Shown here piece after piece: positions 2,813 through 40,797 of a DNA stretch of 61,304 bases (position 1 is the first letter of the stretch; the number at the start of each line of letters is the position of its first letter). The translations under genes and the position numbers were made by a program. This DNA is from Candidatus Nitrosocosmicus sp. (GTDB taxonomy: Archaea; Thermoproteota; Nitrososphaeria; Nitrososphaerales; Nitrososphaeraceae). The notes under the pieces were generated by a model. It saw only the letters and a program-made list of their open reading frames with translations. It had not been told where the DNA came from and made no database searches. Location: contig JAPSGR010000007.1 of assembly GCA_031177355.1 (NCBI GenBank), forward strand, positions 1-61,304, in the 5' to 3' direction.

Positions 2813-3535
2813 TTACGCACTTTTCTTCTTATTAGTTGAAGATTTCTTTGTAGATTTAGTTGTTGAAGGCTTCTTTGAGCTAGTAGGAGTATTCTTTGTA
2901 GATTTAGTTGTTGAAGGCTTCTTTGAGCTAGTAGGAGTATTCTTTGTAGATTTAGTTAAGATATTTTTCTCGATCCTCAACATCCTTTTATCTATTTCTT
3001 TGATTGATATTTGAGTTTGTTTTAATGATACAGTTTGTCTTTCAATAGATTTGAGACCTTTCTGTAAGGGCTGAGATGTCTTCTGTATTTTTTGAATTTC
3101 TTTAAATAGTTTATCTACATTCCTATTGATAGTTTCTAAGTTTCTGGTTATTGGGGTTAAATCAATTTCTTTATCGGCAGAGCTCTTCATGATTTTTTTT
3201 CTATTTGAATGACCAGATTTTTCATCATCTTCATCATCTTCATCATCTTCATCATCTTCATCATCTTCATCATCTTCATCATCTTCATCATCTTCATCAT
3301 CTTCATCATCTTCTTCTAATTCTAAATCTTCATCATCTTCTTCTAATTCTAAATCTTCATCATCTTCTTCTAATTCTAAATCTTCATCGTTGCCGCTCTC
3401 CTTAATTTCTTCCTTATTATCTGAATTTAAAGAACCATCCTCTAAATTTGAAACGTGTCCATCATCATCGGCAGCAGTAATAATTCTTTCTTTCTTATTT
3501 ATAAGAACAGGAAAATGTTGACTCTCCAAAGACAT
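2813..3535 (-). CDS. Low-complexity acidic protein with basic C-terminal tail
   Basis: A 240-residue protein of strong charge asymmetry. Residues about 40-110 are nearly all Asp and Glu: three 9-residue LELEEDDED-type repeats followed by DED triplets. A central part (about 125-190) has heptad-like spacing consistent with a coiled coil. The C-terminus repeats the 16-residue unit TPTSSKKPSTTKSTKN and is Lys/Ser/Thr-rich. No enzyme motif is present. The layout recalls histone-tail or chaperone-like acidic proteins, but that is only analogy. The frame is supported by a sensible N-terminus and by use of Asp/Glu codons in repeats that expand in multiples of three. Confidence 0.6.
   Translation of the reverse strand: MSLESQHFPVLINKKERIITAADDDGHVSNLEDGSLNSDNKEEIKESGNDEDLELEEDDEDLELEEDDEDLELEEDDEDDEDDEDDEDDEDDEDDEDDEDDEDDEKSGHSNRKKIMKSSADKEIDLTPITRNLETINRNVDKLFKEIQKIQKTSQPLQKGLKSIERQTVSLKQTQISIKEIDKRMLRIEKNILTKSTKNTPTSSKKPSTTKSTKNTPTSSKKPSTTKSTKKSSTNKKKSA
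2845..2958 (-). repeat. 48-bp tandem repeat inside the acidic protein gene
   Basis: Two full copies of a 48-bp unit start at 2845 and 2893, and a partial third copy starts at 2941. Each full unit encodes 16 residues rich in Thr, Ser and Lys. The unit length is a multiple of three, so copy-number change would not shift the frame. Confidence 0.85.
3222..3391 (-). repeat. Nine-bp microsatellite and 27-bp tandem repeats encoding acidic runs
   Basis: On the plus strand about ten copies of the 9-mer TCATCATCT run from about 3222 to 3314, encoding DED repeats on the minus strand. They join three copies of a 27-bp unit (3311, 3338, 3365; the third slightly diverged), each encoding nine residues. All unit lengths are multiples of three. 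This is a likely hotspot for slippage. Confidence 0.9.
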
Positions 3536-25376: not shown

Positions 25377-26276
25377 CTACGAATGTTTGTGTTCATGTCT
25401 GTGTTCATCAGTGTGCAAATGAGGATGAGAGTGTGATATTCCCCCATGGCTATGGGAATGATATATTTTCTTAAATAAAGCGTATAAAGCAGTTATTCCA
25501 AAGCCTAATGTAATAAACATAACTATTGTTGGGCCAGAGGAAGAATCCAAAAAGAAACTCGCATACATTCCGGAGAATGAGGCAATCGAGCCTATAATTA
25601 TAGACAAAAATACGACATTTGAAAAATTATTTGAGAGCATGCGAGCAGAAATCGCGGGTCCAACTATTACTGAAGCCAGTAATGTTACTCCCACAGAAGA
25701 CATTGAGACAATTATGATGGTTGCCAGGACAAATGAAAATAATAATTCTATATGAGAAGTTTTAATACCACTTATTTTGGCACTTTCGTTATCAAAGAAA
25801 GAGAAAACCAATCGTTTATGTAGTAAGAAGAAAAAAACAGCTGAAATCATAGTTACTGATACTATAATATAGAGATCTTGTTCTGTAATGGCTAAAATAT
25901 TTCCAAATAAAAGAGATTCAAAATTTCTTGTATATTTATTTGTCATGCTCACTAGTAGCACACCAAAAGCGAAAATGGCTGTTGTTACCAATCCAATAGC
26001 TGCATCTGGTTTAATTGTATTTTTTTTGCTGATTTCGTAGATTACAAACGAGGCTAAATAACTCCAAATAATTGCGCCAATATAGTAGTTTATTCCAACA
26101 ATGTTTCCTACTATAGCGCCACCAAATGCCGCATGAGAAAGTCCATGGCCTACATAACTTAGTCCTCTTAGAATAATATATACTCCAGCTAATCCGCAGA
26201 TGCCACCTAATAAAACCGATACTACTAAACCCTTAATAAAAAATTCATATTCAAACGGTAGCAGAGGATCAATCAT
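25377..26276 (-). CDS. Metal ABC transporter permease, ZnuB-like
   Basis: ABC-3 family permease with about eight membrane segments. The segments GLSYVGHGLSHAAFGGAI and SSVGVTLLASVIVGPA are typical of zinc/manganese permeases. The last 25 residues are a His-rich tail (HSHSHGGISHSH and further His pairs) that could bind metal on the cytoplasmic side. Last gene of znuA-znuC-znuB, 12 bases after the ATPase gene. Next to urease, nickel is a possible cargo, but family members mostly carry zinc or manganese. Confidence 0.88.
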   Translation of the reverse strand: MIDPLLPFEYEFFIKGLVVSVLLGGICGLAGVYIILRGLSYVGHGLSHAAFGGAIVGNIVGINYYIGAIIWSYLASFVIYEISKKNTIKPDAAIGLVTTAIFAFGVLLVSMTNKYTRNFESLLFGNILAITEQDLYIIVSVTMISAVFFFLLHKRLVFSFFDNESAKISGIKTSHIELLFSFVLATIIIVSMSSVGVTLLASVIVGPAISARMLSNNFSNVVFLSIIIGSIASFSGMYASFFLDSSSGPTIVMFITLGFGITALYALFKKIYHSHSHGGISHSHPHLHTDEHRHEHKHS

Positions 26277-26288
26277 GATTGATCTTTA

Positions 26289-27029
26289 TTATTTAATCTT
26301 ATAATCTGAAAGTCCATATGTTTTCAAAAGGTTATCCTCCTTAAGAACATCCTGCGGAGGACCTTCGGCTATGACATATTTGTTAAAGCATATTACCCAT
26401 GGTGAACGATTGGCTATGTGTGTTATATCATGAGTAGACAAAATAACTGTCATTCCATTGTTATTGAGGTTCTTTAATATATCAAATATTTTCTCCCTTG
26501 ATACATAATCTAGGCCTGTTGTAGGTTCGTCTAAAATAAGTATGTCAGGATTTTTAATCAATGCTCTTCCCAAAAATACGCGTTGTTGTTCCCCTCCAGA
26601 GAGAGCTCTAATATGTCGTTTTTCGTATCCGGATAATCCCAATATTTTTAACACATCCTTAATTTGGTTTTTTAATTTTTTATCGATCCAAGGAAGGTAA
26701 CTTTTGTAATTCCATGATCCCATGGCAATAACTTCTTGTACTGAAACCGGGAAATTCCAATCAATGGTTTCTATTTGAGGAACATACCCAACAGAAGGAT
26801 AATAAAATATTGAATCACAATCATTACTAATATACTCTATATCTCCGTTCCAAGGTTCATATATTCCACATAATAATTTTAACAGAGTGGTTTTTCCAGA
26901 ACCACTAGGACCCACTAATGAGACAAATCGGCCCCTTGGAATAGACAAATTAACTCCTTCTAAAACAAAATCATGATAAGAAAATCCATATGATAGACCA
27001 GTTATCCTCAGATACTCGAAGGAGCCCAT
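26289..27029 (-). CDS. Metal ABC transporter ATP-binding protein, ZnuC-like
   Basis: ATPase for the ZnuB-like permease. Walker A is VGPSGSGKTTL, Q-loop YVPQIE, signature LSGGEQQRVF, Walker B ILILDEPTTGL and switch His in LSTHDI. 246 residues, standard size. It sits between the binding-protein and permease genes, 49 and 12 bases away, in one operon. Confidence 0.92.
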   Translation of the reverse strand: MGSFEYLRITGLSYGFSYHDFVLEGVNLSIPRGRFVSLVGPSGSGKTTLLKLLCGIYEPWNGDIEYISNDCDSIFYYPSVGYVPQIETIDWNFPVSVQEVIAMGSWNYKSYLPWIDKKLKNQIKDVLKILGLSGYEKRHIRALSGGEQQRVFLGRALIKNPDILILDEPTTGLDYVSREKIFDILKNLNNNGMTVILSTHDITHIANRSPWVICFNKYVIAEGPPQDVLKEDNLLKTYGLSDYKIK

Positions 27030-27078
27030 CCTAATGGTATTGAAGGTGTAGTTAATTAATATTTAAAAAAATTAAGAT

Positions 27079-28101
27079 TTATTGCATATAGGTATTTGCA
27101 GGATTTATATCAGATAGACTACTAACGTTTCCTCCCAAGGGGACTATCATATTCTCCATATTCTCAAGCATCATTCCAACATAGGTGTGATTTGGATCCA
27201 TAAGATTGCCCGGTAATGCATCATCACTGAGAGTTTGTACTATTTCAATACCAGCTTCATCGGCTATTTGATCTGTGATTCGATTTGAAAAGACCTCGGA
27301 TGCAAATATGGCAGGAACTTTTTCTGCCTTGATCTGATCAATCAATTTTGCAATATCAAGAGGAGATGGCTCTGAAAAGTCCGATGGTTGTACTGCTCCT
27401 ATTACAGTTAGGTTATATCTAGGAGCAAAGTACGCCCAAGAATCATGATATGTAATCAAATTTCTATTTTCTGGAGGTATGCTTTGTGTTGCTTCCCTAA
27501 TCGCTTCATCTAGCTGTTTTAACAAGGCAACATACCTGTTAGCATTTTCTGAATAATAAGCGGCGTTATAGGGATCCATTTCAATCAGTTTATCTTTTGT
27601 TAGATTTGCAAACTTCATAGCATACACCGGATTAAGCCACAAGTGTGGATTAGGATATCCCTGTTCTTTTGGAAAGCTAAAATCAAATATCCAATTAGCG
27701 GGAGTAACGGTATTGTCTCCAAGTTTGAGTAATTTAATATTTGGATTAGTATTTAACGATGTATTTACGATTCTTTCCATAGGATCTTCTAGATGTAGAC
27801 CATTTATTATTACAAGATCTGCATTGCCTAATTTTACAATATCAGATGGTACCGGTTCATAAGTATGTGAATTCACACCTTCAGGAACTAGCCCTGTAAG
27901 ATTTATCTTGTCACCTCCTATGTTTTTTACTATATTAGTTATTGGGGAAATAGAAGTAACCACATTGAGGGTTTTGTTGAGTGCATAAGAGTTTTGACGA
28001 TAGTCAAAATTTGTATTAATGTTAATAAACAAGAGAGACAAGATTATTGCGAATGTTATACAAATCATTGTCTTTGAATTGTTAAAGGAAGATTTTAACA
28101 T
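27079..28101 (-). CDS. Metal ABC transporter substrate-binding protein, ZnuA/TroA family
   Basis: Extracytoplasmic metal-binding protein. An N-terminal hydrophobic helix (about residues 10-27) would anchor or export it. Candidate metal ligands are the His in VNSHTYEPVPSD (cluster A-I signature), the His in PHLWLNPVY, the ITYHDSWAYF His and the late FASEVF/DD region. There is no His-rich loop, unlike many zinc-specific ZnuA proteins. It follows ureD by 82 bases on the same strand; this setting suggests nickel or zinc supply for urease, an inference. Confidence 0.88.
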   Translation of the reverse strand: MLKSSFNNSKTMICITFAIILSLLFININTNFDYRQNSYALNKTLNVVTSISPITNIVKNIGGDKINLTGLVPEGVNSHTYEPVPSDIVKLGNADLVIINGLHLEDPMERIVNTSLNTNPNIKLLKLGDNTVTPANWIFDFSFPKEQGYPNPHLWLNPVYAMKFANLTKDKLIEMDPYNAAYYSENANRYVALLKQLDEAIREATQSIPPENRNLITYHDSWAYFAPRYNLTVIGAVQPSDFSEPSPLDIAKLIDQIKAEKVPAIFASEVFSNRITDQIADEAGIEIVQTLSDDALPGNLMDPNHTYVGMMLENMENMIVPLGGNVSSLSDINPANTYMQ

Positions 28102-28183: not shown

Positions 28184-29119
28184 TTAGATTTTTCTCATTC
28201 CGCTAAAGGAGACATTCAAAACGTTTTTTCTAACAATTCCAACTATAGAATAAATTAAATTTCTAATTTCCCCTACAAATGATCCAAGAAGGCGTATAAG
28301 TAAGCCATTTTCAGCGGGTAGTTTTGTGCATCCACCAATCACACCTTTTATTCTAGGTAATAGATCGAGTATTTCACTTTGTATTTGATTTATCTTATCC
28401 TTTGGAGTTAAAATGTAGATATTTCCTAATATATCATAATTATTCAATATTCCAAAAGATTTTACATTTTCTTTTTTGGGCTCTATTTTTGCCGTATCAA
28501 TTAATCTTAGTTTTTCGTTCTGATTTACTGATTTGACTTTCATAAAACAAATGTCATATTCAAAAGATTCATTGCTGGCCACTCTTCCAGGGGTTAGTAT
28601 CTCAGAATAAATACAAGTTCCTTCGTCATGAACCTTGATATTAGATATTTGATAGAATCTAGAATCTCTGAAAGGTATTATCTGATCAGGAATATATTCT
28701 AAATAACAATTTTTATCAACGTCCAAATTTATAATTTGGGTTCCAAAATTTTTATTCATTCTATATATTCTAGTAGCACTTTGAGTAGTAACGTGAGCTT
28801 TAGCTGAATTTGTAAGAGTGATATCGGTCCTGAATCTATCACCTTGCAATATACCTCCAGAAGGAGAGATCACATACACATAAGCCATTTCAGGACAAGT
28901 TTCTTCCAAATACATTGCTCGCTTTATACAAAGCGGAACCTTATAGTGCTGATATTTAATAGAGGTTTTGTGAAAAATTGGATCATGTTCTAACTTTAGA
29001 TGTAAGATACCTAATTTGCCAGCTTTTCCAATTCCCATCTGTTCTAAAGCGCTATCGTAATTTAATACTTCATTAGGAATTTTTTCAGGAGTACAGTAAG
29101 AAAGATTATATACACTCAT
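28184..29119 (-). CDS. ureD: Urease accessory protein UreD (UreH)
   Basis: Scaffold protein that binds apo-urease and with UreF and UreG delivers nickel. Family features include VYVISPSGGILQGDRF, HVTTQSATRIYRM and EYIPDQIIPFRDSRF. 311 residues, slightly longer than average. Last of the ure genes, 15 bases after ureG. Confidence 0.92.
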   Translation of the reverse strand: MSVYNLSYCTPEKIPNEVLNYDSALEQMGIGKAGKLGILHLKLEHDPIFHKTSIKYQHYKVPLCIKRAMYLEETCPEMAYVYVISPSGGILQGDRFRTDITLTNSAKAHVTTQSATRIYRMNKNFGTQIINLDVDKNCYLEYIPDQIIPFRDSRFYQISNIKVHDEGTCIYSEILTPGRVASNESFEYDICFMKVKSVNQNEKLRLIDTAKIEPKKENVKSFGILNNYDILGNIYILTPKDKINQIQSEILDLLPRIKGVIGGCTKLPAENGLLIRLLGSFVGEIRNLIYSIVGIVRKNVLNVSFSGMRKI

Positions 29120-29134
29120 AAAATCACGAAATGG

Positions 29135-29791
29135 TTAATTGATAGCTACAGATTTAGGAGGTGCATCAAACAATACATCTTTTATTATCTGTTCAGTAAC
29201 TTTTTTGACACCTTGACCTGTCTTGCTGTTAACAAAAACATATGGTTTATCATTTCTAACAATCTTTGCATCCCTTTCCATGACACTAAGATCAGCACCT
29301 ATAAAAGATGCAATATCTATTTTATTAATTACTAACAAATCAGAGGTTTCTATCCCCAGGCCACGTTTTCTAGGATATTTATCACCTCCAGAAACATCTA
29401 TGATATATATGAAATAATCAGCAAGAGCAGGACTAAATGTAGTTGTTATATTATCACCTCCACTCTCGATAATTATTAGATCAAGATTGGGATGCTTGGC
29501 CTCCATTTCCTCGACAACAGATATATTGATTGATGGATCCTCTCTCACTGCAGTATGAGGACAACCTCCAGTAGCTATACCTATTACAAGATCTTCTGGC
29601 ATTAATCCTCTCTCGGTGGCAAGATTTTTTCTCATCCTATCGGCATCTTCTCGTGAAACAACATCATTAGAAATAATTCCAACGTTATATCCTTCATTCT
29701 TTAAAATAGGAACTAACTGTTCTATTAGCATCGTTTTTCCTGATCCTACAGGACCCCCTATGCCAATGCGGGGAATTCTTGAAAGTGCCAC
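29135..29791 (-). CDS. ureG: Urease accessory GTPase UreG
   Basis: SIMIBI-class GTPase that carries nickel to urease. P-loop [17 protein letters not shown] near the N-terminus, the metal-binding Cys-Pro-His in [15 protein letters not shown], and guanine-specificity NKID. GTG start. 19 bases downstream of ureF. Confidence 0.96.
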
Positions 29792-29810
29792 AAAAAGTAA
29801 AATGAAAAAA

Positions 29811-30542
29811 TCAAGTTATAAACATTTTTGAATCCATCTGTTCATGGTGCATTTGGATTATATCTAATTGAGGGATAAATTGCCACATACTGTCTGCAGG
29901 TTGTTCAATATTTTTTAACACCGTAGATAATATGACAGGCTTTAATTCATTGATCATCATTTGCCCCTCATAATGCTGTAGGATGCCTAATCTAAGTGCT
30001 GCTCCTACTACACTGACCACAAAACCATACAATAGCATTAAACCCGATCTATCCTTTGTTAAATTCATAGAATTACATCCTAATGCGTAAGAAACAGGAA
30101 AAACGCCTTTGGCTAAACCATCCTTAATACTTTTTGAATAAAAAGTTAGAAATTCATCTTCGCTGCTAAATGTAGAAACACATCTTAGGAATTGAATGCC
30201 CGACCTAGTTGAGGCAGAACGAGTTTCATCTACCAATCTCATGAAATAATACATGTTATCCAGATCCACTAGTGATGTAAAGTCCTTCTTTTGTATGCTG
30301 TTATATGCATTTCCTATAACACAACAATCTGTGGGTCCAATCTGTTGAACAATATAGGCTCTAATAAAATCTGAAATTTCATCATACGATAATTTTCTAT
30401 TTTTATTATAAAACAAGAGTTCTAATCCATTGGAGGTTGTATACAACCCAGTTGGAAAAAAGGAATCAGATAATTGTAAAAAACTTAGATCCTCAATGGA
30501 TATAGATGATATTTTGTCGCTGTCAGTGTGCATGGATATCAA
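29811..30542 (-). CDS. ureF: Urease accessory protein UreF
   Basis: All-helical protein that gates UreG action on the urease-UreD complex. Recognisable segments are [20 protein letters not shown] at the N-terminus (usually SFPxGxFxxSxGLE) and [14 protein letters not shown] later. 243 residues. Its 5' end overlaps ureE by 20 bases, so the two are translated from one message. Confidence 0.92.
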
Positions 30543-31098
30543 ATCCTTGGTCAGGTTCGAAAATAAGAGTTTCTGTACGAATTTCTACATAGTCTTTTAA
30601 ATCAGATAAGAGCCTTAAGAACAGATTTACCTCATCAGGGCTTTGGATAGGAAATATTATATCACCTTTATTGATTTTCAGTGGTCTATGTAAGTTTCCA
30701 ATTGTGTGACCCACCTTTATTGCAATATTCGTAAGGTCATGGTCATGGTCATGGTCATGGTCATGGCGATCATCACTATTGTCAATGTTGTTGTCATGTG
30801 AATGCCTATATCTTTTCTTAATATTCAGGATAGCCACAAGTTCTGGTGATAATTTTATGATTATCATTTTAGTATCATCTAAAAATGCTACATCACCATC
30901 TTTTAGATAAGTTCTAGAAGGTAGAATAAATCCTACATCAGTTTTTTTATCTGAAACCTTTCTCATCCTAACCTTCTCAGTTTCAGATCTCTGAATAGTT
31001 ATGGTTTCAAGAGTATTTTTTTTTAATGATTCTTCATACTTTAGATTCAAGTCTAAATTATTTTTTATATTCCCTATGATTGCTGTTACGGTTAACAT
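30523..31098 (-). CDS. ureE: Urease accessory protein UreE, nickel-binding
   Basis: Nickel chaperone. I chose the ATG at 31098, giving MLTVTAIIGN, the usual UreE start; the frame is open 15 codons further up. Two domains: an N-terminal peptide-binding domain and a C-terminal metal-binding domain with KVGHTIGNLHRPL. Between them a loop with HDHDHDHDHD plus HSHDN is encoded by a 6-bp tandem repeat (about 30737-30772). Many UreE proteins have such a run at the C-terminus; here it is internal, ahead of the HTIGNLH motif. Confidence 0.92.
   Translation of the reverse strand: MLTVTAIIGNIKNNLDLNLKYEESLKKNTLETITIQRSETEKVRMRKVSDKKTDVGFILPSRTYLKDGDVAFLDDTKMIIIKLSPELVAILNIKKRYRHSHDNNIDNSDDRHDHDHDHDHDLTNIAIKVGHTIGNLHRPLKINKGDIIFPIQSPDEVNLFLRLLSDLKDYVEIRTETLIFEPDQGFDIHAH
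30737..30772 (-). repeat. 6-bp tandem repeat encoding the UreE His-Asp run
   Basis: About five to six copies of GGTCAT on the plus strand encode alternating His and Asp. Copy number can vary without frameshift and would tune the number of metal-binding residues. Confidence 0.85.
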
Positions 31099-31220
31099 CA
31101 GATAAGATATACAGTCCAGTCTTATCCATAAAAACAATTTCAAATTGTTGTAATCACAATATACATTATAATAATAATTATTAGGAACGCTATTGAGACG
31201 AATAATTATTAAGAAAAATT

Positions 31221-31619
31221 TTATATTTTATTATCAATATCATCTAAGCCCCTATTATCTTTAGTAGTTGTGTTGGGGTTTAAGATTCTTACTTTTTTTA
31301 CAGCGTCTATCATATTTGTCAAATTTTGAGTATAATCGTATTTGCCATAATGTTGATAATTATCAGGATTTAAATCAGCGAACATGAATCTACTATCAGA
31401 TATTTCAACTTTTGATCCTACTTCGAATCTTTCGGCTATTATGCATTGTTTTACTAAATGATAAGGATAATCAAGGTTAAGATGTGATTTAGGATCTATC
31501 AATCCTGAAATCAAAGATAACTTTCCGAATTTTACAATCACATGTCTAATTTGCAAGGGATCGATGATCATCAAAGACTCATCAACGTTACATTTTTCAG
31601 TACAATGTCTAATTTGCAC
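31221..31619 (-). CDS. Unknown protein inside the urease operon (132 residues)
   Basis: Not recognised. No membrane segment and no obvious motif; it looks like a small beta-rich domain (HVIVKFGKLSLISGLIDP, FEVGSKVEISDSRFMF) with a polar C-terminal tail. The frame starts with GTG 6 bases after the thermosome stop; an ATG at 31571 gives a protein of 116 residues and is a good alternative, because the segment LQIRH after it partly repeats the first residues (a 14-base repeat ATGTCTAATTTGCA occurs at about 31534 and 31605). It lies between the thermosome and ureE. Confidence 0.6.
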   Translation of the reverse strand: MQIRHCTEKCNVDESLMIIDPLQIRHVIVKFGKLSLISGLIDPKSHLNLDYPYHLVKQCIIAERFEVGSKVEISDSRFMFADLNPDNYQHYGKYDYTQNLTNMIDAVKKVRILNPNTTTKDNRGLDDIDNKI

Positions 31620-31625
31620 TGGCTG

Positions 31626-33185
31626 TCACCTCTTTGAATCAGCAAGTGCCTGGGGATTAAGATCGTCTGCTGCTAAATTCTTGTCAATCCTGAGAACAGA
31701 TTTTGCCATTTCTCCTGATGCTTCTAATGCCATGGTCTTTACCAATACAGGATCAAGTACACCTTTGGTTACCATATTTACGATTTCTCCACTATCTATA
31801 TCAACTCCATATCCATCAGGTGATGCTTTAGCATTCATTACTTTTTCTAAACCATTAAATCCAGCATTTGTTAATATTTGTCTCATTATACTCTCCAGAG
31901 CAGAAGTTACCACTTCAAGGCCAACTTGCTCCAATCCATTGAGTTTTAATTGTTTGATTTTTTCGATAATATGTAATTCAGCGGCGCCACCACCTGGAAC
32001 GACTCCATAATTTAAGGCTGCTTCTGCAGCATTAATTCCATCGATTGTTGATCTCCATCTCTCTAAGGATGTTTCTTTTGTTGATCCTGATATCAAGATT
32101 GTAATAATCTTTTTTCCATCACCATTTTCCAAGTATATTATCCCGTTATCCTCATCTTCGTATATTTTTTCAGAAACACCAATAATATCATTATTTTTCA
32201 GATCATCTAATGTTCGTATTGGCTTGGCACCAGTATACCTTGATAAATATTCTATTTCTTCATTTGAGATATGAACTGCAAATAGGCCTTTTGACACAAA
32301 TAGATCTTCAATTATTTGATCTACCTCAGGCGAGGCTATAAATAGAGTATTTGCACCTGTTTCTACTATAGTGTCTACAATTCTTTTGGATTTTTCTAGA
32401 CGATCCTTTTCCATAGTAAGAATATCTTGATATTTGCTATTTTCTTTGATCCAAGATTCTTTTACAGGTTTTAAATCTAATTTTAGGATAAGAATCTTTG
32501 AATTTTCAACTTTGCTTGGAAGCTCAGGGTCAATTCTTTTTCTTTCAAGGACAATCCCGTTAAAAATTTTGTCGTCAACATCAACTCTTCTTATCACTTT
32601 AACTGCTTTGTCAAAATCATATAACCCGTTGTATATGGCATCCTTTCCCACAGTACGCAAGGCCTCAACTACTAGTTTATGCAACACCCGACCATCAAGT
32701 TTAGACGATAGGCTTGTTTTAACAATTTGGTCAAGTTCGGCATCACTTAGTTTAATTTTCGTAGCACTTTTCATTAATAAATCACAGGAATGCTTTATAC
32801 CACTCTCTATGCCTTCTACGACCTTGGTAGGATGAACAGCTAGTTCGCGGATTAGCCTCTTACCTTCTTTTATCATTTCAGCTGCTAGAATAACCGCAGT
32901 GGTTGTACCATCTCCCACTTTTTGTTCTTGTCTTTCTGCAATTTCCACAATCATTCGTGCTACAGGATGAATTGCCCTTAAGGAGAGCAATATAGTAACA
33001 CCATCATTAGATACATGCCTATTCATAGATTGATCGATCAAAAGTTTGTCCAGGCCCTTTGGTCCCAATGTTGTTCTAACAGTATCTGCTACTGCCATTA
33101 CAGCATTAGAATTGGATTCTAAGGCATTAAATTCGATGTTTTCGGCAATTGGTTTCCAAACTCCAAAATTTTGCGGTGAAGACAT
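31626..33185 (-). CDS. Group II chaperonin (thermosome) subunit in the urease operon
   Basis: ATP-driven protein-folding chaperonin subunit. Signatures include RTTLGPKGLDKLL, NDGVTIL, VGDGTTTAV and VVPGGGAAEL. The ATG at 33185 (MSSPQNFG) is preferred to a TTG seven codons upstream. 519 residues is shorter than usual (about 540-560), and the C-terminus (LNPQALADSKR) lacks the Gly-Gly-Met repeats common in thermosomes, so this is a divergent paralogue. It lies 84 bases after ureC and 6 before the 132-residue gene, ahead of ureE. A dedicated role in urease folding is an inference. Confidence 0.9.
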   Translation of the reverse strand: MSSPQNFGVWKPIAENIEFNALESNSNAVMAVADTVRTTLGPKGLDKLLIDQSMNRHVSNDGVTILLSLRAIHPVARMIVEIAERQEQKVGDGTTTAVILAAEMIKEGKRLIRELAVHPTKVVEGIESGIKHSCDLLMKSATKIKLSDAELDQIVKTSLSSKLDGRVLHKLVVEALRTVGKDAIYNGLYDFDKAVKVIRRVDVDDKIFNGIVLERKRIDPELPSKVENSKILILKLDLKPVKESWIKENSKYQDILTMEKDRLEKSKRIVDTIVETGANTLFIASPEVDQIIEDLFVSKGLFAVHISNEEIEYLSRYTGAKPIRTLDDLKNNDIIGVSEKIYEDEDNGIIYLENGDGKKIITILISGSTKETSLERWRSTIDGINAAEAALNYGVVPGGGAAELHIIEKIKQLKLNGLEQVGLEVVTSALESIMRQILTNAGFNGLEKVMNAKASPDGYGVDIDSGEIVNMVTKGVLDPVLVKTMALEASGEMAKSVLRIDKNLAADDLNPQALADSKR

Positions 33186-33269
33186 ATTTTTAGATTTGAA
33201 GACCAAGAGATAAATGTATCAGAAATAATAAAACAAAACAAAAATTTGAAAATAAAAATAAGATTGGAA

Positions 33270-34997
33270 CTACGCCATAAAGTATCTCTGAGCTAATGTT
33301 AGTTCCGTTGCAGGATCAACTGTAGCAATCTGCCCATCAATTTTTACTTCATATGTTTCAGGATCGATCTTAATTTCTGGTGTTTTATCGTTCCACATCA
33401 TGTCTTTCTTTCCGATACTTCTGCAATTACTTACAGGCAATACCGTCTTCTCTAAGCCTAGTTTTTGAGGAACACCCAATGATATTGCTTTTTTTGACAT
33501 GAATGTAAAAGAGGTCTTCTTTACGGCGCGTCCCATGGCCCCAAACATGGGTCTATAGAATACTGGCTCTGGTGTTGGTATAGAAGCATTTGGATCTCCC
33601 ATTATGGACCAGGCTATAAAGCCACCTTTAAATACCATTTTTGGTTTTGCGGCAAAGAATGGAGTGTTATACATCACTATATCAGCATATTTTCCTACCT
33701 CTAGTGAGCCAAGATGATCAGAAACACCATGTGTAATGGCACAATTAATCGTCGTTTTTGCAATATAACGTTTTGCTCTTAAATTATCATTATCTCCTTC
33801 CTCATCTTTTAGTTTTCCTTTCATTTTTTTCATTTTATCTGCTGTTTGCCATGCACGGATTACCACTTCTCCAATTCTACCCATCGCCTGACTATCAGAT
33901 GAATACATGCTAAGGATTCCTTCATCATGCAACACGTCTTCTGCTGCGATAGTTTCGGCTCTTATTCTAGAATCTGCAAAAGCGACGTCTTCTGCAACTG
34001 CGGGATTAAGATGGTGACAGAACATAAGCATATCCAAATGTTCATCAATCGTATTGACAGTAAATGGTCTAGTAGGATTGGTGGATGAGGGCAATACATT
34101 AGGTTCTGCCGCAATAGCCATAATATCTGGAGCATGACCTCCACCAGCACCCTCAGTGTGATAAGTATGAACAGCTCGTCCATCTATTGCATTTACTGTA
34201 TCCTCAAGGTATCCACATTCATTTATAGAATCAGTGTGAATGGCAACTTGGACATCTGTTAAATCGGCTGCACGAAGTGATGCATCCAAAACGGCTGGAG
34301 TAGTTCCCCAGTCTTCATGATCCTTTAATCCACAAGCACCAGCTTCAATTTGTTCCATCTGAGTGGCCAAAGACGGATGAGAATCATTACCTTTTCCTAA
34401 AAATCCCCAATTCATTGGAGTATCTTCAACCGCTTCTAGCATTCTGCTTATATTAAACACACCAGGTGTACATGTAGTAGCGTTGGTACCATCTGCAGGA
34501 CCAGTACCTCCACCTATCATATTACAAATACCATTGCTAATTCCATCGAGATATTGCTGTGGTGAAATCATGTGAATATGAGTGTCAAAGTGTCCAGGAG
34601 TGCAGATAGTATGCTCACCAGCAGTTGCTTCTGTGCAAGCGGACACCACTAGATTTCTATCAACGTCATCCATTACTAACGGATTTCCTGCTTTTCCTAT
34701 ACCCGCAATTTTACCATCCTTAATACCGATATCTCCCTTTACTATTCCTATTACAGGATCTAATACTACAGCATTTGTAATGACAAAATCTAAAGCTCCT
34801 GCCGCATTGGTAACACCTGGAGTCTGTGCTAGACCATCACGAATTGTTTTACCACCACCAAATACACATTCATCACCATGAGAAATCAAATCTTTTTCGA
34901 CCTCAATTAAGAGATCAGTATCACCTAAGCGGATCTTGTCTCCTTTCGTAGGGCCAAATAGGTCAGTGTATTGCTGTTTAGTTAATTTTAGAACCAA
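33270..34997 (-). CDS. ureC: Urease subunit alpha, catalytic
   Basis: Catalytic nickel subunit that hydrolyses urea to ammonia and carbamate. The motifs are present: nickel ligands in HFDTHIHMI, carbamylated Lys in [11 protein letters not shown], His ligands in [10 protein letters not shown] and GGGHAPDIM, flap Cys-His in MFCHHLNP, and the Asp ligand in [12 protein letters not shown]. 575 residues. The TTG start directly follows the TAA of ureB (TAATTG), so translation may be coupled. Confidence 0.98.
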
Positions 34998-35402
34998 TTA
35001 TATCCTCTCCTCCTTATTATTACCCATTCCTTTAAAGCCATAGAACTTGGCTTTTTCAAATGCAGATTTTTTTATATTACCAGATTTCATACTTCCCATC
35101 GTCAATCCATTAAATCCAAAACAAACTCTTGAACCTCCTAATTCACATAGTTCAACTTCTTTTGAATCACCAGGTTCAAACCTTATAGAAGTTCCGGCGG
35201 GTATATTTAATCTATAGCCAAAGGTTTGTTCCCTAGGAAAATCCAATGCCTTATTAATTTCAAAGAAATGTGTATGAGATCCAATCTGAGATGGTCTATC
35301 ACCGGTATTTTTTACAGTAACCTTAATGGTTTTTCTATTTTCATTGCACAGTACATCTCCCTCAGCTAAAATATATTCCCCAGGTTTCATTATAAAGGAC
35401 AA
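34998..35402 (-). CDS. ureB: Urease subunit beta
   Basis: Structural beta-rich subunit. Motifs [36 protein letters not shown] and [21 protein letters not shown] are standard. It is a separate gene, as in bacteria, not fused to ureA. 50 bases after ureA. Confidence 0.96.
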
Positions 35403-35452
35403 CCTCCTCTCAAGGATTCTGATTTAATTATGCATATCATTTCTTTTTCCTC

Positions 35453-35755
35453 CTACTGAATTGGATCGTGAACGGTAACAAGCTTCGTACCATCTGGAAA
35501 TGTAGCTTCTGCTTGCACAGTATGTATCATTTCAGGAACTCCCTCCATAACATCTGTCCTTTTTAAAATATTTCTTGCAGATGACATCAACTCTGCGACT
35601 GATTTTCCTTCACGAGCACCTTCTACTATGTAATTCGCTATATAAGCAATCGATTCTGGATAGTTAAGTTTTATTCCCTTTTGTTTTCTTCCCTCGGCAA
35701 TTTGAGCTGCTGTCCATATCATCATCTTTTCTATTTCTCTTGGAACTAACATCAT
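35453..35755 (-). CDS. ureA: Urease subunit gamma
   Basis: Small structural subunit (100 residues), with [30 protein letters not shown] and a C-terminal TVHDPI. First of the ure genes; the 115 bases upstream hold a TATA-like CATATATATT and a palindrome, so the urease promoter is probably here. Confidence 0.96.
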
Positions 35756-35810
35756 TTTAATTCATATATAACAAACGTAGTGAATTATTTTAAAATTCAA
35801 AATAATAATC

Positions 35811-35818
35811 AATATATA
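35811..35818 (-). promoter_or_regulatory. Candidate TATA box of the urease operon
   Basis: AATATATA (minus strand TATATATT) about 56-63 bases upstream of the ureA start, predicting a start of transcription near 35790 and a leader of roughly 35 bases. A second AT-rich site at 35764-35770 is too near the ATG. Confidence 0.4.
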
Positions 35819-35844
35819 TGAACAATTACCATTTTCAGACTCGA

Positions 35845-35864
35845 TTTAGTCGACATCGACTAAA
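35845..35864. promoter_or_regulatory. 20-bp palindrome upstream of ureA
   Basis: TTTAGTCGA-CA-TCGACTAAA is a perfect 9+9 inverted repeat with a 2-base centre. The centre is too short for a normal terminator hairpin, and it contains the relatively rare GTCGAC. It lies about 27-53 bases upstream of the candidate TATA box, where an archaeal activator would bind, and 6 bases beyond the stop of the 191-residue gene. It could be an operator for the urease genes. Confidence 0.45.
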
Positions 35865-35870
35865 AAGTTA

Positions 35871-36446
35871 TTATTTCTTTGAGATCTTAATAGGTAAACA
35901 CATCTTTAGCCAATATAATGTTTTGTTATAGTCACCGTTTTTTCCAGTTGGTAAAATAAATTCATATTTTTCGTTGTCTGTATTAATTATCAATACATTT
36001 TCCTTTATAGCGGTCCCAAGCATATTTGAAACCAAGGTTTTAACATCAGGATAGAATACAAATTTTGTAATGTTTTTGTAATTTATAGAGGCTTCATTCA
36101 AATCTGAATTATCTTTTAGAACAAAAGCATCCTTTTTCTTAATATCAGAATATTCAATTTTTTTTGATAATATATAGTAAAGGTATGGTCCAAGTCCAGC
36201 GACAAAACCAGGATCAGTAAGTTTGCGAATAAAGTTTTTCTTAAACAAGATAATTCGACTTGGAGTAAATGTAAGTAGGTAATCAATTTTCATAGGTTTT
36301 TGTTTTACATATCCAGAGAGTCTTAATATGATGGGTTCAACATTACGGTCATCCATTAGATCGCAAAACATTTTAATTTTTTGTACATCAGACAGTGTAG
36401 AATCAGATTTGATCCTATTCAAATCTATCTCTAGTTCGGACATCAC
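35871..36446 (-). CDS. Unknown protein between urea channel and urease (191 residues)
   Basis: Not recognised. The middle has alternating strands (IDYLLTFTPSRIILFKK, VLIINTDNEKYEFILP) that could make a PH-like beta barrel, with no membrane segment. It lies 93 bases after the urea channel gene and 115 before ureA on the same strand, inside the urea cluster, but has no motif linking it to urea. Confidence 0.65.
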   Translation of the reverse strand: MMSELEIDLNRIKSDSTLSDVQKIKMFCDLMDDRNVEPIILRLSGYVKQKPMKIDYLLTFTPSRIILFKKNFIRKLTDPGFVAGLGPYLYYILSKKIEYSDIKKKDAFVLKDNSDLNEASINYKNITKFVFYPDVKTLVSNMLGTAIKENVLIINTDNEKYEFILPTGKNGDYNKTLYWLKMCLPIKISKK

Positions 36447-36539
36447 GCTAAGTTATAGAATGTGAAATATTACTTTAATTAAAAAAATGGGTATCGTATT
36501 CCTAAACTAAAGAAGAATGGTAGAAGGATTAAAGAAAGG

Positions 36540-37676
36540 CTATCCTTCGGGCCTAGACCATCCTATTCCGGCCGGAATATTTGAAAATCCAAAGATTGCA
36601 ATCAGCCATACCCATGCTGTAAACACGAATGGACCTGTGAGTGCGGGTAAGCCCCACTGTCCAAAGAACCGTTGGAGTGCAGGCATTACGATTACAGAAC
36701 AGGCAACAGTAGCAAGTACTGCCATAAAAAATGATTGCCATGTTAGGGGTACAAAACTAGTCAGGGCTATCATTACAAGTACCTGATTAAATCCATGTAA
36801 ACCAATTCTAGTTTCTTGGGTAGGTAACTTCATCAATATAGACAACGCAGCACCAATCGCTGATCCTACAAATGCCATGAGTCCCGCTAGATACAGTGGT
36901 GAATATTCATTCCATTGTGCTGTATACCCATTTGTAAACCAAGGCCTATCCTGAACACCAGCGATAAAGGGTGCCAATTCAAAAGTTAGAGTAAGCCCAA
37001 CAACCCAAAATACGCCTGTCTTCCAATTCTCAACAAAGGTAACTTGAGACACACCCTTGAGTGTTGCAATAATAAATTCTTTGGCGGTCCATTTGAAATT
37101 TTCAGGTTTCAATTGGACAGGATTATCACTCCCAGATATTTTATCTTCTTTAGCAGATTGAGGAATTTCGGGCCAAACATCGTGTCCATAACGCTTACTT
37201 GCATACATCATAGCCCATGTAGTGAATATGAATGAGGAAGTAAATCCTGGAATAGCAACTGAGTTAGCTATACCGCCTCTCTCGTCAGGACTAAATATAT
37301 CTCCCATAAAGTGTGAAAATGCCATCCATGCCACAGCGGTAATAATTGCTCCAAATAAGGAAATCGTCAACGTTACTCGGTTTGCTTTTACAAATGGTCC
37401 AGACCAAAAGGCCATTCCTGTTAGTATGGAATTGTATCCAAACAATCCAAACGTAACTAACCCATAATCTGCACCCAGTAGTAACGCTGTTGCCGCTCCA
37501 ATTAAACCCGCGGCGACCATCATTACACCGGCTTTTCGTGAGGCTAAAAGCACACCTGCAAGAATAAATATACCAGTTACTGGAGAACTCAGCAAAGGAA
37601 CTTCAGAGATGCCATTAAACAAGATATAAAAGAAATCTAGAAGAGGATCTCCCGACGAATATGTTGGTATTCCCAT
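36540..37676 (-). CDS. Urea transporter, UT family
   Basis: Integral membrane channel or facilitator for urea. The repeated UT hallmarks are visible: FYILFNGISEVPLLSSPVTG, GLFGYNSILTGMAFW in the first half and LHGFNQVLVMIAL in the second, giving two homologous halves of five helices. 378 residues. It is a passive uptake route alongside the active symporter upstream. Two AT-rich palindromes lie in its upstream region. Confidence 0.9.
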   Translation of the reverse strand: MGIPTYSSGDPLLDFFYILFNGISEVPLLSSPVTGIFILAGVLLASRKAGVMMVAAGLIGAATALLLGADYGLVTFGLFGYNSILTGMAFWSGPFVKANRVTLTISLFGAIITAVAWMAFSHFMGDIFSPDERGGIANSVAIPGFTSSFIFTTWAMMYASKRYGHDVWPEIPQSAKEDKISGSDNPVQLKPENFKWTAKEFIIATLKGVSQVTFVENWKTGVFWVVGLTLTFELAPFIAGVQDRPWFTNGYTAQWNEYSPLYLAGLMAFVGSAIGAALSILMKLPTQETRIGLHGFNQVLVMIALTSFVPLTWQSFFMAVLATVACSVIVMPALQRFFGQWGLPALTGPFVFTAWVWLIAIFGFSNIPAGIGWSRPEG

Positions 37677-37695
37677 AGAAGGATTTTGTACAGGT

Positions 37696-37737
37696 ATTGT
37701 TTAACAATTTGTATTGAATATCAGTTTATTAATAAAC
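37696..37737. promoter_or_regulatory. Two palindromes upstream of the urea channel
   Basis: ATTGTT-T-AACAAT (37696-37708) and GTTTATTAATAAAC (37724-37737) are perfect inverted repeats. The second includes a TATA-like core 48-61 bases before the start at 37676; the first lies between that core and the start, where a repressor could act. AT richness makes chance palindromes fairly common here. Confidence 0.3.
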
Positions 37738-37757
37738 AAAGGATTGGCAACCATAAA

Positions 37758-40106
37758 TCAGTTAAGTAATAGTACTGGTTTATTTGATTCAATAAGAATT
37801 TTTTTTGTTACATGACCAAGATCGTTGGAATTTCCTAATCCCTTTGTTCCTAATACTATCATATCTACATTAAGATCATTGGCAGTTTTGATAATTTTCT
37901 TTGCAGGATCTCCCACTTTGACTATCCTTTCACATCTTCGAGGGTTTTTCATAAGGATGCTGGAGAGAACAAGCCTTCCTTCTTTTTCAATGCGCTTTAT
38001 TAATTCTGTATCATATTCGATATTATCTTCATGATCGTCAGTCCATTCGATAACATGTACTACGTAGATTACAGAGTCAGGCTGGAAGGTATGACTAACA
38101 TAATCTAACGCCCTTATTGAAGCCATAGAACCATCAACAGCGACCAGAATTCTCTTGTTAGCTGTGTTAATAGAACTTTCAAAATGAGAAGTATCACTTT
38201 TACTTTTAAGTGAGGAAGCCGGTTTGTTGAAATTTCTAAAGTAAAGTTTTGATCGAATAACCATAATAACATTAGATATTACTGTCGAAATTTCTCTTTT
38301 TGATTCGACTAGTGGTTTAACTATTAGAAAACATGCAGCAGCTATAGTCCATACAATACTTAGTATAATCCAAAATAAAAAAAACTCGAAAGAAAATATA
38401 TAACCTGAGAAGAATAATGGTAACGGCCAAATTACAACCAGTAATAAAGTGAAAATTGTTCCGTATTTGTACCCAAATAATGTTCTCTTTTTTAAGAGCA
38501 TCTCATCACTATCTTCCTTTATTAAAGACCTGATTCTCTCCTCGGCAACCACTATTCGCTGTTTTGTAATATTAAAATTAAAGTTGTCAGGTTTGATTAA
38601 ACTTCCCAATATAACAAAGGCAAATCCGGTTGTAAAGGAAGTTAAATTGCCTAAAAGAAGTGGAATATCGTGACTAGTAGATAAAACAGAAATATTCCCA
38701 TATAAATAATATGCTGAAAAAAGCCAGACAAAAACGCCAGATAACAGGCCCAATAATGCAGAAAGGGATGCAGACATCTTGTTGGTTTTCTCCCATACTA
38801 AAGATAATGATATAGGGCCAACCGCAGAGCCGATTAAAATTCCCATTGATAGATAGATATATTGTAGGTTCAACCCTATGTAAAATAAAGATAAGGAAAG
38901 TAATGCGATCCCAAGTCCAAACACCAAAACAGAATATTTCGATACACGCATTAACTGTCTGCCAGACGCGGATGGTTTGAAATAAGTTCTATAGACATCA
39001 AACGTGAATAAAGATGAAAATGCAACGAGTTCAGCTGACCCTGCACAGGTTACCGCAGTAAAAAGCATAGTCAGTATAAGAATACCACCCACTTCTCCAA
39101 GGAGACTTGAAATAGTAATAGGAGCCACTAATCCATGACTAACCTCTGAGGAGGAGAGGTCTAAGTGTAATGCTATTGCTGCAAGTCCAAGCGAAGTTGC
39201 AAGAGCAAATGGAATAGAAAACCACGCCAATCCACCAATAAAAAATCCCTTTATGAGGGATTTTGGACGTGAGGCAATGGCTCTCTGCCAAAAAGCTTGA
39301 TCAACAAAAACAGTTCCAAAGTTTCCAATAATGTTTATTATTCCAAAAATAAGCGCACCAACTGAGGCCAATGTTAGGAATGAACCCCCAGAGTTTCCTT
39401 CCACAGGATTAATGGTGCTTGCCAATTGTAAATCTTCAAATAATCCTGTTATTCCGCCAATATTTGGATTATAGAAATAGATGCTTGATACTAGTATTAA
39501 TATAACAATAAAAATTAGAGAGGTATTTAGATAATCTGCAAAAAAAGTAGCCTTTAAACCTCCAAAATATGTATACATCACAATACTCAAAGGAATTATA
39601 AAACAAGCTATAGTAATGTCAATCCCCGTTAGAGCATTCAAGGCTGCTGCCCCTCCTAGTACGAGCATGGCAGTTACAATAGAATTAGCCAATAATGCGA
39701 AAAGCAAGAATATCTTATGACCAAACTTTCCTAGTCTAAGATATAGAAATTCTGTAAATGTGTGAGAAGAGGGAGATCTTTTTTTCAACTCTAAGGCAAT
39801 TACAGCAAAAAGAATGATCTGGATGCTGGCTCCTGCTGCATACCAAAAGGGCCCACTAATTCCATACTTATAGGCTACAGTGGACGATTCTAAAAGTGTA
39901 GCAGCCCAAATCCAAGCAGAAATAACAGAGGAAGCCAACAAACCACTCTTAATATTTCGCCCTGCTGTAGAAAACCACTCAAATGTTTTCCGAGTTCCAA
40001 GCCATTTAGTATCTACGAAAATAAGCAATAATACCAGTAATGTCATTATCAAACCCCCTCCAATGAAAATTAAATAACCTGTTTCTTGGGAGAGTATGAA
40101 TGACAA
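37758..40106 (-). CDS. Sodium:solute (DUR3-like urea) symporter fused to a UspA domain
   Basis: 782 residues. The first 500 or so are a sodium:solute symporter core of about 13 helices (SSHTFTEFLYLRLGKFGHK, TYFGGLKATFFADYLNT), as in DUR3-type urea symporters. Two further helices are at about 545-600. A universal stress protein domain (about 648-782) begins KRILVAVDGS and ends with the ATP-loop-like GTKGLGNSNDLGHVTKKI. Substrate urea is inferred from the operon. The UspA domain may sense nucleotide and adjust transport. Divergent from the Lrp-like gene, with a shared 151-base promoter region. Confidence 0.85.
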   Translation of the reverse strand: MSFILSQETGYLIFIGGGLIMTLLVLLLIFVDTKWLGTRKTFEWFSTAGRNIKSGLLASSVISAWIWAATLLESSTVAYKYGISGPFWYAAGASIQIILFAVIALELKKRSPSSHTFTEFLYLRLGKFGHKIFLLFALLANSIVTAMLVLGGAAALNALTGIDITIACFIIPLSIVMYTYFGGLKATFFADYLNTSLIFIVILILVSSIYFYNPNIGGITGLFEDLQLASTINPVEGNSGGSFLTLASVGALIFGIINIIGNFGTVFVDQAFWQRAIASRPKSLIKGFFIGGLAWFSIPFALATSLGLAAIALHLDLSSSEVSHGLVAPITISSLLGEVGGILILTMLFTAVTCAGSAELVAFSSLFTFDVYRTYFKPSASGRQLMRVSKYSVLVFGLGIALLSLSLFYIGLNLQYIYLSMGILIGSAVGPISLSLVWEKTNKMSASLSALLGLLSGVFVWLFSAYYLYGNISVLSTSHDIPLLLGNLTSFTTGFAFVILGSLIKPDNFNFNITKQRIVVAEERIRSLIKEDSDEMLLKKRTLFGYKYGTIFTLLLVVIWPLPLFFSGYIFSFEFFLFWIILSIVWTIAAACFLIVKPLVESKREISTVISNVIMVIRSKLYFRNFNKPASSLKSKSDTSHFESSINTANKRILVAVDGSMASIRALDYVSHTFQPDSVIYVVHVIEWTDDHEDNIEYDTELIKRIEKEGRLVLSSILMKNPRRCERIVKVGDPAKKIIKTANDLNVDMIVLGTKGLGNSNDLGHVTKKILIESNKPVLLLN

Positions 40107-40257: not shown

Positions 40258-40797
40258 ATGATAGATACGATCGACGAGTTAATTCTTTCTGCTCTAAGTA
40301 AAGACGCCAAGCAGGACTTGAATGAGATTTGGTATTTTTTAAGAAGTTATGGTCATAATCTGAGTTTAGAAGAGATAGATTCGCGTATCAAGACACTAGA
40401 GGATGAAAAAATAATATCAAGATATACAATTTCTATCGATACTAAGAAAGTAAGGCACAAGATAATTAGGGTTGTTTTAGTTACTTTTAGACCCTCACAA
40501 CATTTAAGAAGTAGGATAGAGGGATTGAAGAAATACCTTGAAGATGCTCCATTTGTGTTATTTTCAGGTAGAACAAGAGGAGGATATGACTGGATTACCA
40601 TTCAGGTATTTTCTTCTCCAGAGGTCGCAGATGAAGAAAGTGATATTTATAGAAATCTATTTGGAGATATCATCCAAACATATGAAGTTTATGATTTTTC
40701 TCCTCTAAAGGAACCTACATTCAATGCATTTACTTATACAGAAAAAGAATATAAAAAATTCTTAAATGAATGGATGCCTCCGTTCCTAGGAAGATGA
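40258..40797 (+). CDS. Lrp/AsnC-like transcription regulator
   Basis: 179 residues: an N-terminal helix-turn-helix (about 5-60, IDELILSALSKDAKQDLNEI...SRIKTLEDEKIIS) and a C-terminal ligand/oligomer domain of RAM type (IRVVLVTFRPS... FVLFSGRTRGGYDWITIQVF). It is divergent from the DUR3-UspA symporter, so it is a candidate regulator of urea uptake; this is inference. A TATA-like CTATAAATATT is about 40 bases upstream. Confidence 0.75.
   Translation: MIDTIDELILSALSKDAKQDLNEIWYFLRSYGHNLSLEEIDSRIKTLEDEKIISRYTISIDTKKVRHKIIRVVLVTFRPSQHLRSRIEGLKKYLEDAPFVLFSGRTRGGYDWITIQVFSSPEVADEESDIYRNLFGDIIQTYEVYDFSPLKEPTFNAFTYTEKEYKKFLNEWMPPFLGR

Follow-up and report, generated by a model that had tools for sequence, protein, structure and literature searches.

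A divergent group II chaperonin encoded in urease clusters of archaea and anammox bacteria is a probable dedicated urease helper

Urease provides ammonia from urea to ammonia-oxidizing archaea (AOA) and to some anammox bacteria, organisms that are central to the nitrogen cycle. Standard ureases require UreDEFG only. The closest described system is the Hsp60 homologue (arCOG01257) of Abby et al. (2018; PMC5797428), which, in the portions of that paper cited here, is conserved in the urease loci of Nitrosocaldus and Nitrososphaerales, is absent in Nitrosopumilales and is proposed to stabilize urease. For N. viennensis, joint up-regulation of the urease operon under Cu limitation is reported, with the chaperonin left unnamed in the text (PMC7785015). 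The Hsp60 of H. pylori is associated with urease and its GroES homologue HspA carries a His-rich Ni-binding tail (as cited in passages of PMC5797428 and PMC4671568), and MmoG, a GroEL-like protein encoded in sMMO operons, is thought to be dedicated to the folding of one metalloenzyme (PMC9324122).

The window analysed here is a stretch of 61,304 nucleotides from Candidatus Nitrosocosmicus sp., to which all positions refer unless a locus is named, and belongs to a Nitrososphaeria assembly of 2.32 Mb that is 97% complete. A urea-use cluster occupies 28184-40106 on the - strand in the order SSS symporter, UT urea transporter, ORF191, ureA, ureB, ureC, cpnU, ORF132, ureE, ureF, ureG, ureD:

37758-40106, - strand: SSS-family symporter, putative urea transporter (NCBIfam TIGR00813; synteny)
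36540-37676, - strand: UT-type urea transporter (NCBIfam TIGR03441, score below cut-off; synteny)
35871-36446, - strand: ORF191, without a Pfam family (synteny)
35453-35755, - strand: ureA, urease gamma (Pfam PF00547)
34998-35402, - strand: ureB, urease beta (Pfam PF00699)
33270-34997, - strand: ureC, urease alpha and likely client of the chaperonin, 575 aa (Pfam Urease_alpha and Amidohydro_1)
31626-33185, - strand: cpnU, divergent group II chaperonin, 519 aa (Pfam Cpn60_TCP1, E 2.8e-103; orthologues; AlphaFold model)
31221-31619, - strand: ORF132, small conserved partner, 132 aa, GTG start (co-occurrence with cpnU; alignment; dN/dS)
30523-31143, - strand: ureE (Pfam UreE_N)
29811-30542, - strand: ureF (Pfam PF01730)
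29135-29791, - strand: ureG, GTPase (Pfam cobW/HypB/UreG)
28184-29119, - strand: ureD/ureH (Pfam PF01774)

The cpnU frame of 519 codons runs from the ATG at 33185 to the stop at 31626 and lies downstream of ureC on the same strand. The first-pass annotation had placed a group II chaperonin between ureC and ureE; its coordinates, strand and position stood, but the gene that comes next is ORF132, an unannotated frame of 132 codons (31619-31221) that begins 6 bp past the cpnU stop and is itself followed by ureE. The 84-bp gap between ureC and cpnU is T-rich, so separate transcription of cpnU is possible; the Cu-limitation response of the N. viennensis urease operon fits co-regulation. Judging from tblastn extents, ureE orthologues start near codon 16 (ATG at about 31098), and the ureE product contains a His/Asp-rich stretch. 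Across Nitrososphaeraceae urease loci ORF191 is conserved, lying between ureA and the UT transporter; Nitrosocaldus-like clusters gave no match to it. Directly downstream of ureD (25377-28101, - strand) lies a ZnuA-type metal ABC transporter composed of a binding protein, an ATPase and a permease with a His-rich C-terminus, which may import nickel, since similar transporter genes occur near the second urease cluster in locus L051. A Lrp-like regulator (40258-40797, + strand) is divergent from the urea transporter, and L051 has a similar gene (2961-3371 of that locus) close to the second urease cluster; this is a possible urease regulator common to both urease loci.

We took a full-length Cpn60_TCP1 match above the curated cut-off as the mark of a group II chaperonin, and cpnU gave 346.7 bits against a cut-off of 34.3, with positions 1-484 of the 490 in the Pfam profile covered. 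It failed all curated thermosome models (307.3 against 671.1 bits for TIGR02339, 302.7 against 450 and 291.5 against 400) as well as the GroEL family model TIGR02348 (146.9 against 582.1 bits). The genome encodes exactly two other chaperonins, both standard thermosomes on other contigs (633 and 618 bits), to which cpnU is about 31% identical. These housekeeping proteins have 555 and 562 aa and GGM tails, whereas cpnU, as the first-pass annotation had noted, is shorter and lacks the Gly-Gly-Met repeat; its C-terminus reads ...LNPQALADSKR, and the shortening is mainly at both ends, where the tail and a few N-terminal residues are missing. In a chaperonin tree taken without group I and group III rows, the cpnU sequences formed a single clade with 100% SH-aLRT and a long stem, apart from the thermosomes and from cpn4, a chaperonin described below. 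An ordinary thermosome copy, which the first-pass annotation had also doubted, is ruled out by the profile scores, the tail and the tree. The top PDB match, 9rwq, hinted at a possible group III affinity; 9rwq is itself a reconstructed ancestral group II protein (294 bits), and the real group III protein (5x9u/5x9v) scored lower (198 bits for 5x9u), with the T. acidophilum thermosome at 226 bits.

The built-in lid (helical protrusion) is present in cpnU, where its segment counts 40 residues and that of thermosomes 42; the segment is shortened in the cpnU of two loci (L034 and L113). In the alignment, cpnU retains the thermosome residues at the group II ATPase site (D61, D92, T94, K162 and the catalytic D382), with K162 replaced by R in the anammox members. 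The AlphaFold model (mean pLDDT 81) matched Mm-cpn, thermosome and group III structures (TM 0.76-0.80, E 3e-32), Mm-cpn and thermosomes being the closest. Read from sequence, this fold with its intact ATPase residues most likely belongs to an ATP-driven chaperonin, for which a double ring is predicted. Congeners carry cpnU at 95-96% identity, and its dN/dS against them (0.020-0.024) is close to that of ureC, the signature of strong purifying selection; a pseudogene is ruled out by a dN/dS of about 0.02.

Of 400 Nitrososphaeria genomes, 40 had a cpnU orthologue, spanning two AOA families (Nitrososphaeraceae, to which the window belongs, and a Nitrosocaldus-like one) and G049, a single genome of a distant family. 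A wider scan covered 85,000 genomes with two short peptide patterns as the query, so that more distant members may be missed. It added Scalindua and Brocadia, both anammox bacteria, with full-alignment identities of 43-45%, and two MAGs, labelled 'Thermoplasmata' (61%) and 'Euryarchaeota' (36%); the matches below these were ordinary thermosomes at about 30-32% with no ure cluster nearby. A plasmid search for close relatives returned only haloarchaeal thermosomes and weaker matches, below 60% identity. Most cpnU loci come from MAGs, and L101, L113 and L108 are possibly mis-binned contigs, the matches of L108 being nearly the same as those of L107.

A ure gene lay at most 431 bp from cpnU in 83 of 84 loci, the exception being a contig (L104) that ends inside cpnU and whose upstream 2.4 kb is non-ure DNA. 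A chance neighbourhood in one genome is thereby ruled out, although the figure of 83 is not a tally of independent events, since many loci come from congeners or from one genome fetched twice. The independent evidence lies in the differing gene orders, which indicate that the linkage outlived rearrangement. Nitrososphaeraceae and Nitrosocaldus have ureABC-cpnU-ORF132-EFGD, and named Nitrosocosmicus, Nitrososphaera and Nitrosocaldus records show the same arrangement as the window; Scalindua and Brocadia have ureABC-ORF132-EFGD-cpnU; and cpnU is convergent with ureD in G049 (L034) and in the 'Euryarchaeota' MAG (L113). G049 is a non-AOA Nitrososphaeria genome (L034, L047) with a urease cluster whose ureC is 66% identical, split over separate contigs as ureBC-ORF132 and cpnU-DGFE. 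The supposition that the gene stays with ure genes in other genomes was thus borne out, also after rearrangement and in bacteria, and the opposite case, cpnU sitting away from ure genes in most relatives, is contradicted.

Many AOA (all Nitrosopumilaceae sampled) possess urease but neither cpnU nor ORF132. As cpnU is missing from AOA that have the other urease lineage, it is no universal requirement; and since standard ureases make do with UreDEFG, the chaperonin is dispensable for urease in general. That some AOA ureases function without cpnU, that chaperonins are often promiscuous and that cpnU retains the general ATPase and lid anatomy would all suit an extra general or stress chaperonin, inherited and transferred in the urease block without a urease-specific role. 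We regard this as quite unlikely, because the linkage holds over different gene orders and two domains, because two ordinary thermosomes elsewhere in the genome already cover general folding, and because of two observations taken up below: ORF132 is never seen without cpnU, and cpnU of Brocadiales occurs solely beside ure genes.

Among 59 Brocadiales genomes, cpnU was present in five, with ure genes adjoining in 5/5. Only one of the remaining 54 had a clear urease, of a different type that groups with other bacterial ureases. In 199 Planctomycetota genomes, cpnU matches were confined to anammox bacteria and no other group II chaperonin was found at E 1e-60, so that the anammox cpnU would need its own ring. 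This bears on whether cpnU could be a third, specialised subunit that joins thermosome alpha and beta in mixed rings and shifts their client range. Alpha and beta thermosomes are present in AOA and hetero-oligomeric thermosomes are common, but cpnU is a separate clade with only about 31% identity to either subunit and the anammox hosts offer no partner at the E 1e-60 threshold, which makes mixed rings very improbable. The UreE of cpnU-bearing clusters is weakly conserved, with identities of 25-42% beyond the genus and of 21-28% for anammox. The anammox urease literature searched makes no mention of a chaperonin.

In a search of 300 Nitrososphaeria genomes, ORF132 occurred in 29, all of which (29/29) also had cpnU, and in the sole cpnU genome without ORF132 the cpnU gene lies at a contig end. 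The anammox clusters, G049 and L113 also have ORF132 after ureC. Its dN/dS is 0.09-0.16. It had no Pfam or PDB match, and the best result of a fold search was no better than E 3; weak matches to amidohydrolases were not significant and were set aside. Alignment revealed invariant His5, His26, His46, His54, Asp42 and Asp95. Such residues could belong to a metal carrier, in which case the cpnU chamber might hold UreC (or UreABC together with UreDFG) while Ni and CO2 are loaded. The poor conservation of UreE in these clusters is consistent with this, and H. pylori HspA offers a precedent for a Ni-carrying chaperonin part (PMC4671568). We nevertheless consider it unlikely: cpnU has 7 His only and no His-rich tail, the set of UreE, F, G and D is complete in most cases, and ORF132 matches no known metal protein.

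In the ureC tree, the cpnU-linked ureases of AOA, anammox bacteria, G049 and L113 came together, and the second urease lineage of AOA was nested inside. Monophyly of the cpnU-linked ureC was unsupported, as the other AOA lineage nests among them (p-AU 0.03). The simplest reading of these sequences would be a single urease lineage with cpnU and ORF132, both of which were lost once in the other AOA lineage. Published trees place anammox UreC nearest two actinobacteria (Raineyella and Euzebya) and apart from AOA (PMC10467342); our tree, with few bacterial rows, does not fix the direction or source of transfer.

A second divergent chaperonin, cpn4, is encoded outside the window in other AOA genomes, for example at L051:4267-5979 (- strand), with further loci in L053, L054, L056-L060, L064, L071, L153-L182 and L201-L220. 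It is 46-47% identical to thermosomes, and a His-rich C-terminal tail (THxHxDGTxHxH...QRxxHHYY) was present in 50/50 loci checked; it looks like a nickel-handling chaperonin. Adjacent to cpn4 are the second AOA urease lineage, a ureohydrolase gene or both, along with a small gene resembling urease gamma and an SSS symporter, and in some loci a NikR gene is near. The small protein is weakly but consistently similar to urease gamma (NCBIfam E about 1e-6; L059:4356-4751, - strand; L056:1471; L208:3469) and, in many AOA, is encoded beside cpn4 and a ureohydrolase of the agmatinase family. We considered cpn4 as an independent urease chaperonin, but cpn4 is also found beside a ureohydrolase and an SSS symporter away from urease; we therefore do not claim it to be urease-dedicated. 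The literature searched contained no report of cpn4.

Because cpnU stays with urease genes in AOA and in some anammox bacteria, it is probably a dedicated urease helper. We judge it probable that this chaperonin serves urease folding or assembly, with UreC as the likely client and ORF132 as an adaptor. UreC is a 62-kDa TIM-barrel amidohydrolase of a size that suits a chaperonin cage, so cpnU most likely folds or holds it. From these patterns we infer not only the client but also the make-up of the ring, what ORF132 does and the order in which the steps follow. An ATP-driven double ring, most likely made of cpnU alone and with its lid built in, would bind and fold newly made UreC, or keep it competent for assembly with UreAB; ORF132 would probably be an adaptor or assembly factor linking chaperonin and urease; and nickel loading by UreDEFG would come after the cpnU step. 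More tentatively, and short of calling it probable, cpnU and ORF132 may form a urease-specific chaperonin-adaptor pair, a layer beyond UreDEFG that moved with urease between archaea and anammox bacteria. If true, a group II chaperonin devoted to one client would be at work in bacteria, together with a partner protein of a new type. That a bacterial urease operon contains a group II chaperonin indicates that such a pair can cross domains, and a one-enzyme chaperonin would offer a simple and testable case of a general folding cage turning client-specific. There is possible relevance for expressing these ureases without extra genes.

Compared with archaeal thermosome alpha and beta, cpnU shares the full-length fold, the built-in lid and the ATPase residues, but it stays below the TIGR02339 cut-off, is only about 31% identical, has no GGM repeat and is located among ure genes. 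The likeness to H. pylori Hsp60/HspA is that of a chaperonin system tied to a nickel enzyme; those proteins, however, are group I, housekeeping and encoded outside the urease operon, and cpnU lacks the His-rich tail. MmoG sets a precedent for a dedicated chaperonin encoded, like cpnU, in the operon of its presumed client, but is a relative of GroEL (group I) without a built-in lid and has another client (PMC9324122). In Nitrososphaerales and Nitrosocaldus, the Hsp60 homologue of Abby et al. is the same gene as cpnU and occupies the same place (PMC5797428). The first-pass annotation had seen here a candidate for an uncharacterised system, but that paper had already reported the gene in archaeal urease loci and proposed a stabilizing role, and the first-pass finding is in its main point a rediscovery. 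The cited portions of their account do not mention ORF132, the anammox members, the copy in non-AOA Nitrososphaeria or the reshuffled gene orders, and place no urease in Thaumarchaeota other than AOA (PMC5797428), in contrast to the one seen in G049. Judged against the literature searched, what is new is the occurrence in bacteria, the partner ORF132 and the clusters with altered gene order.
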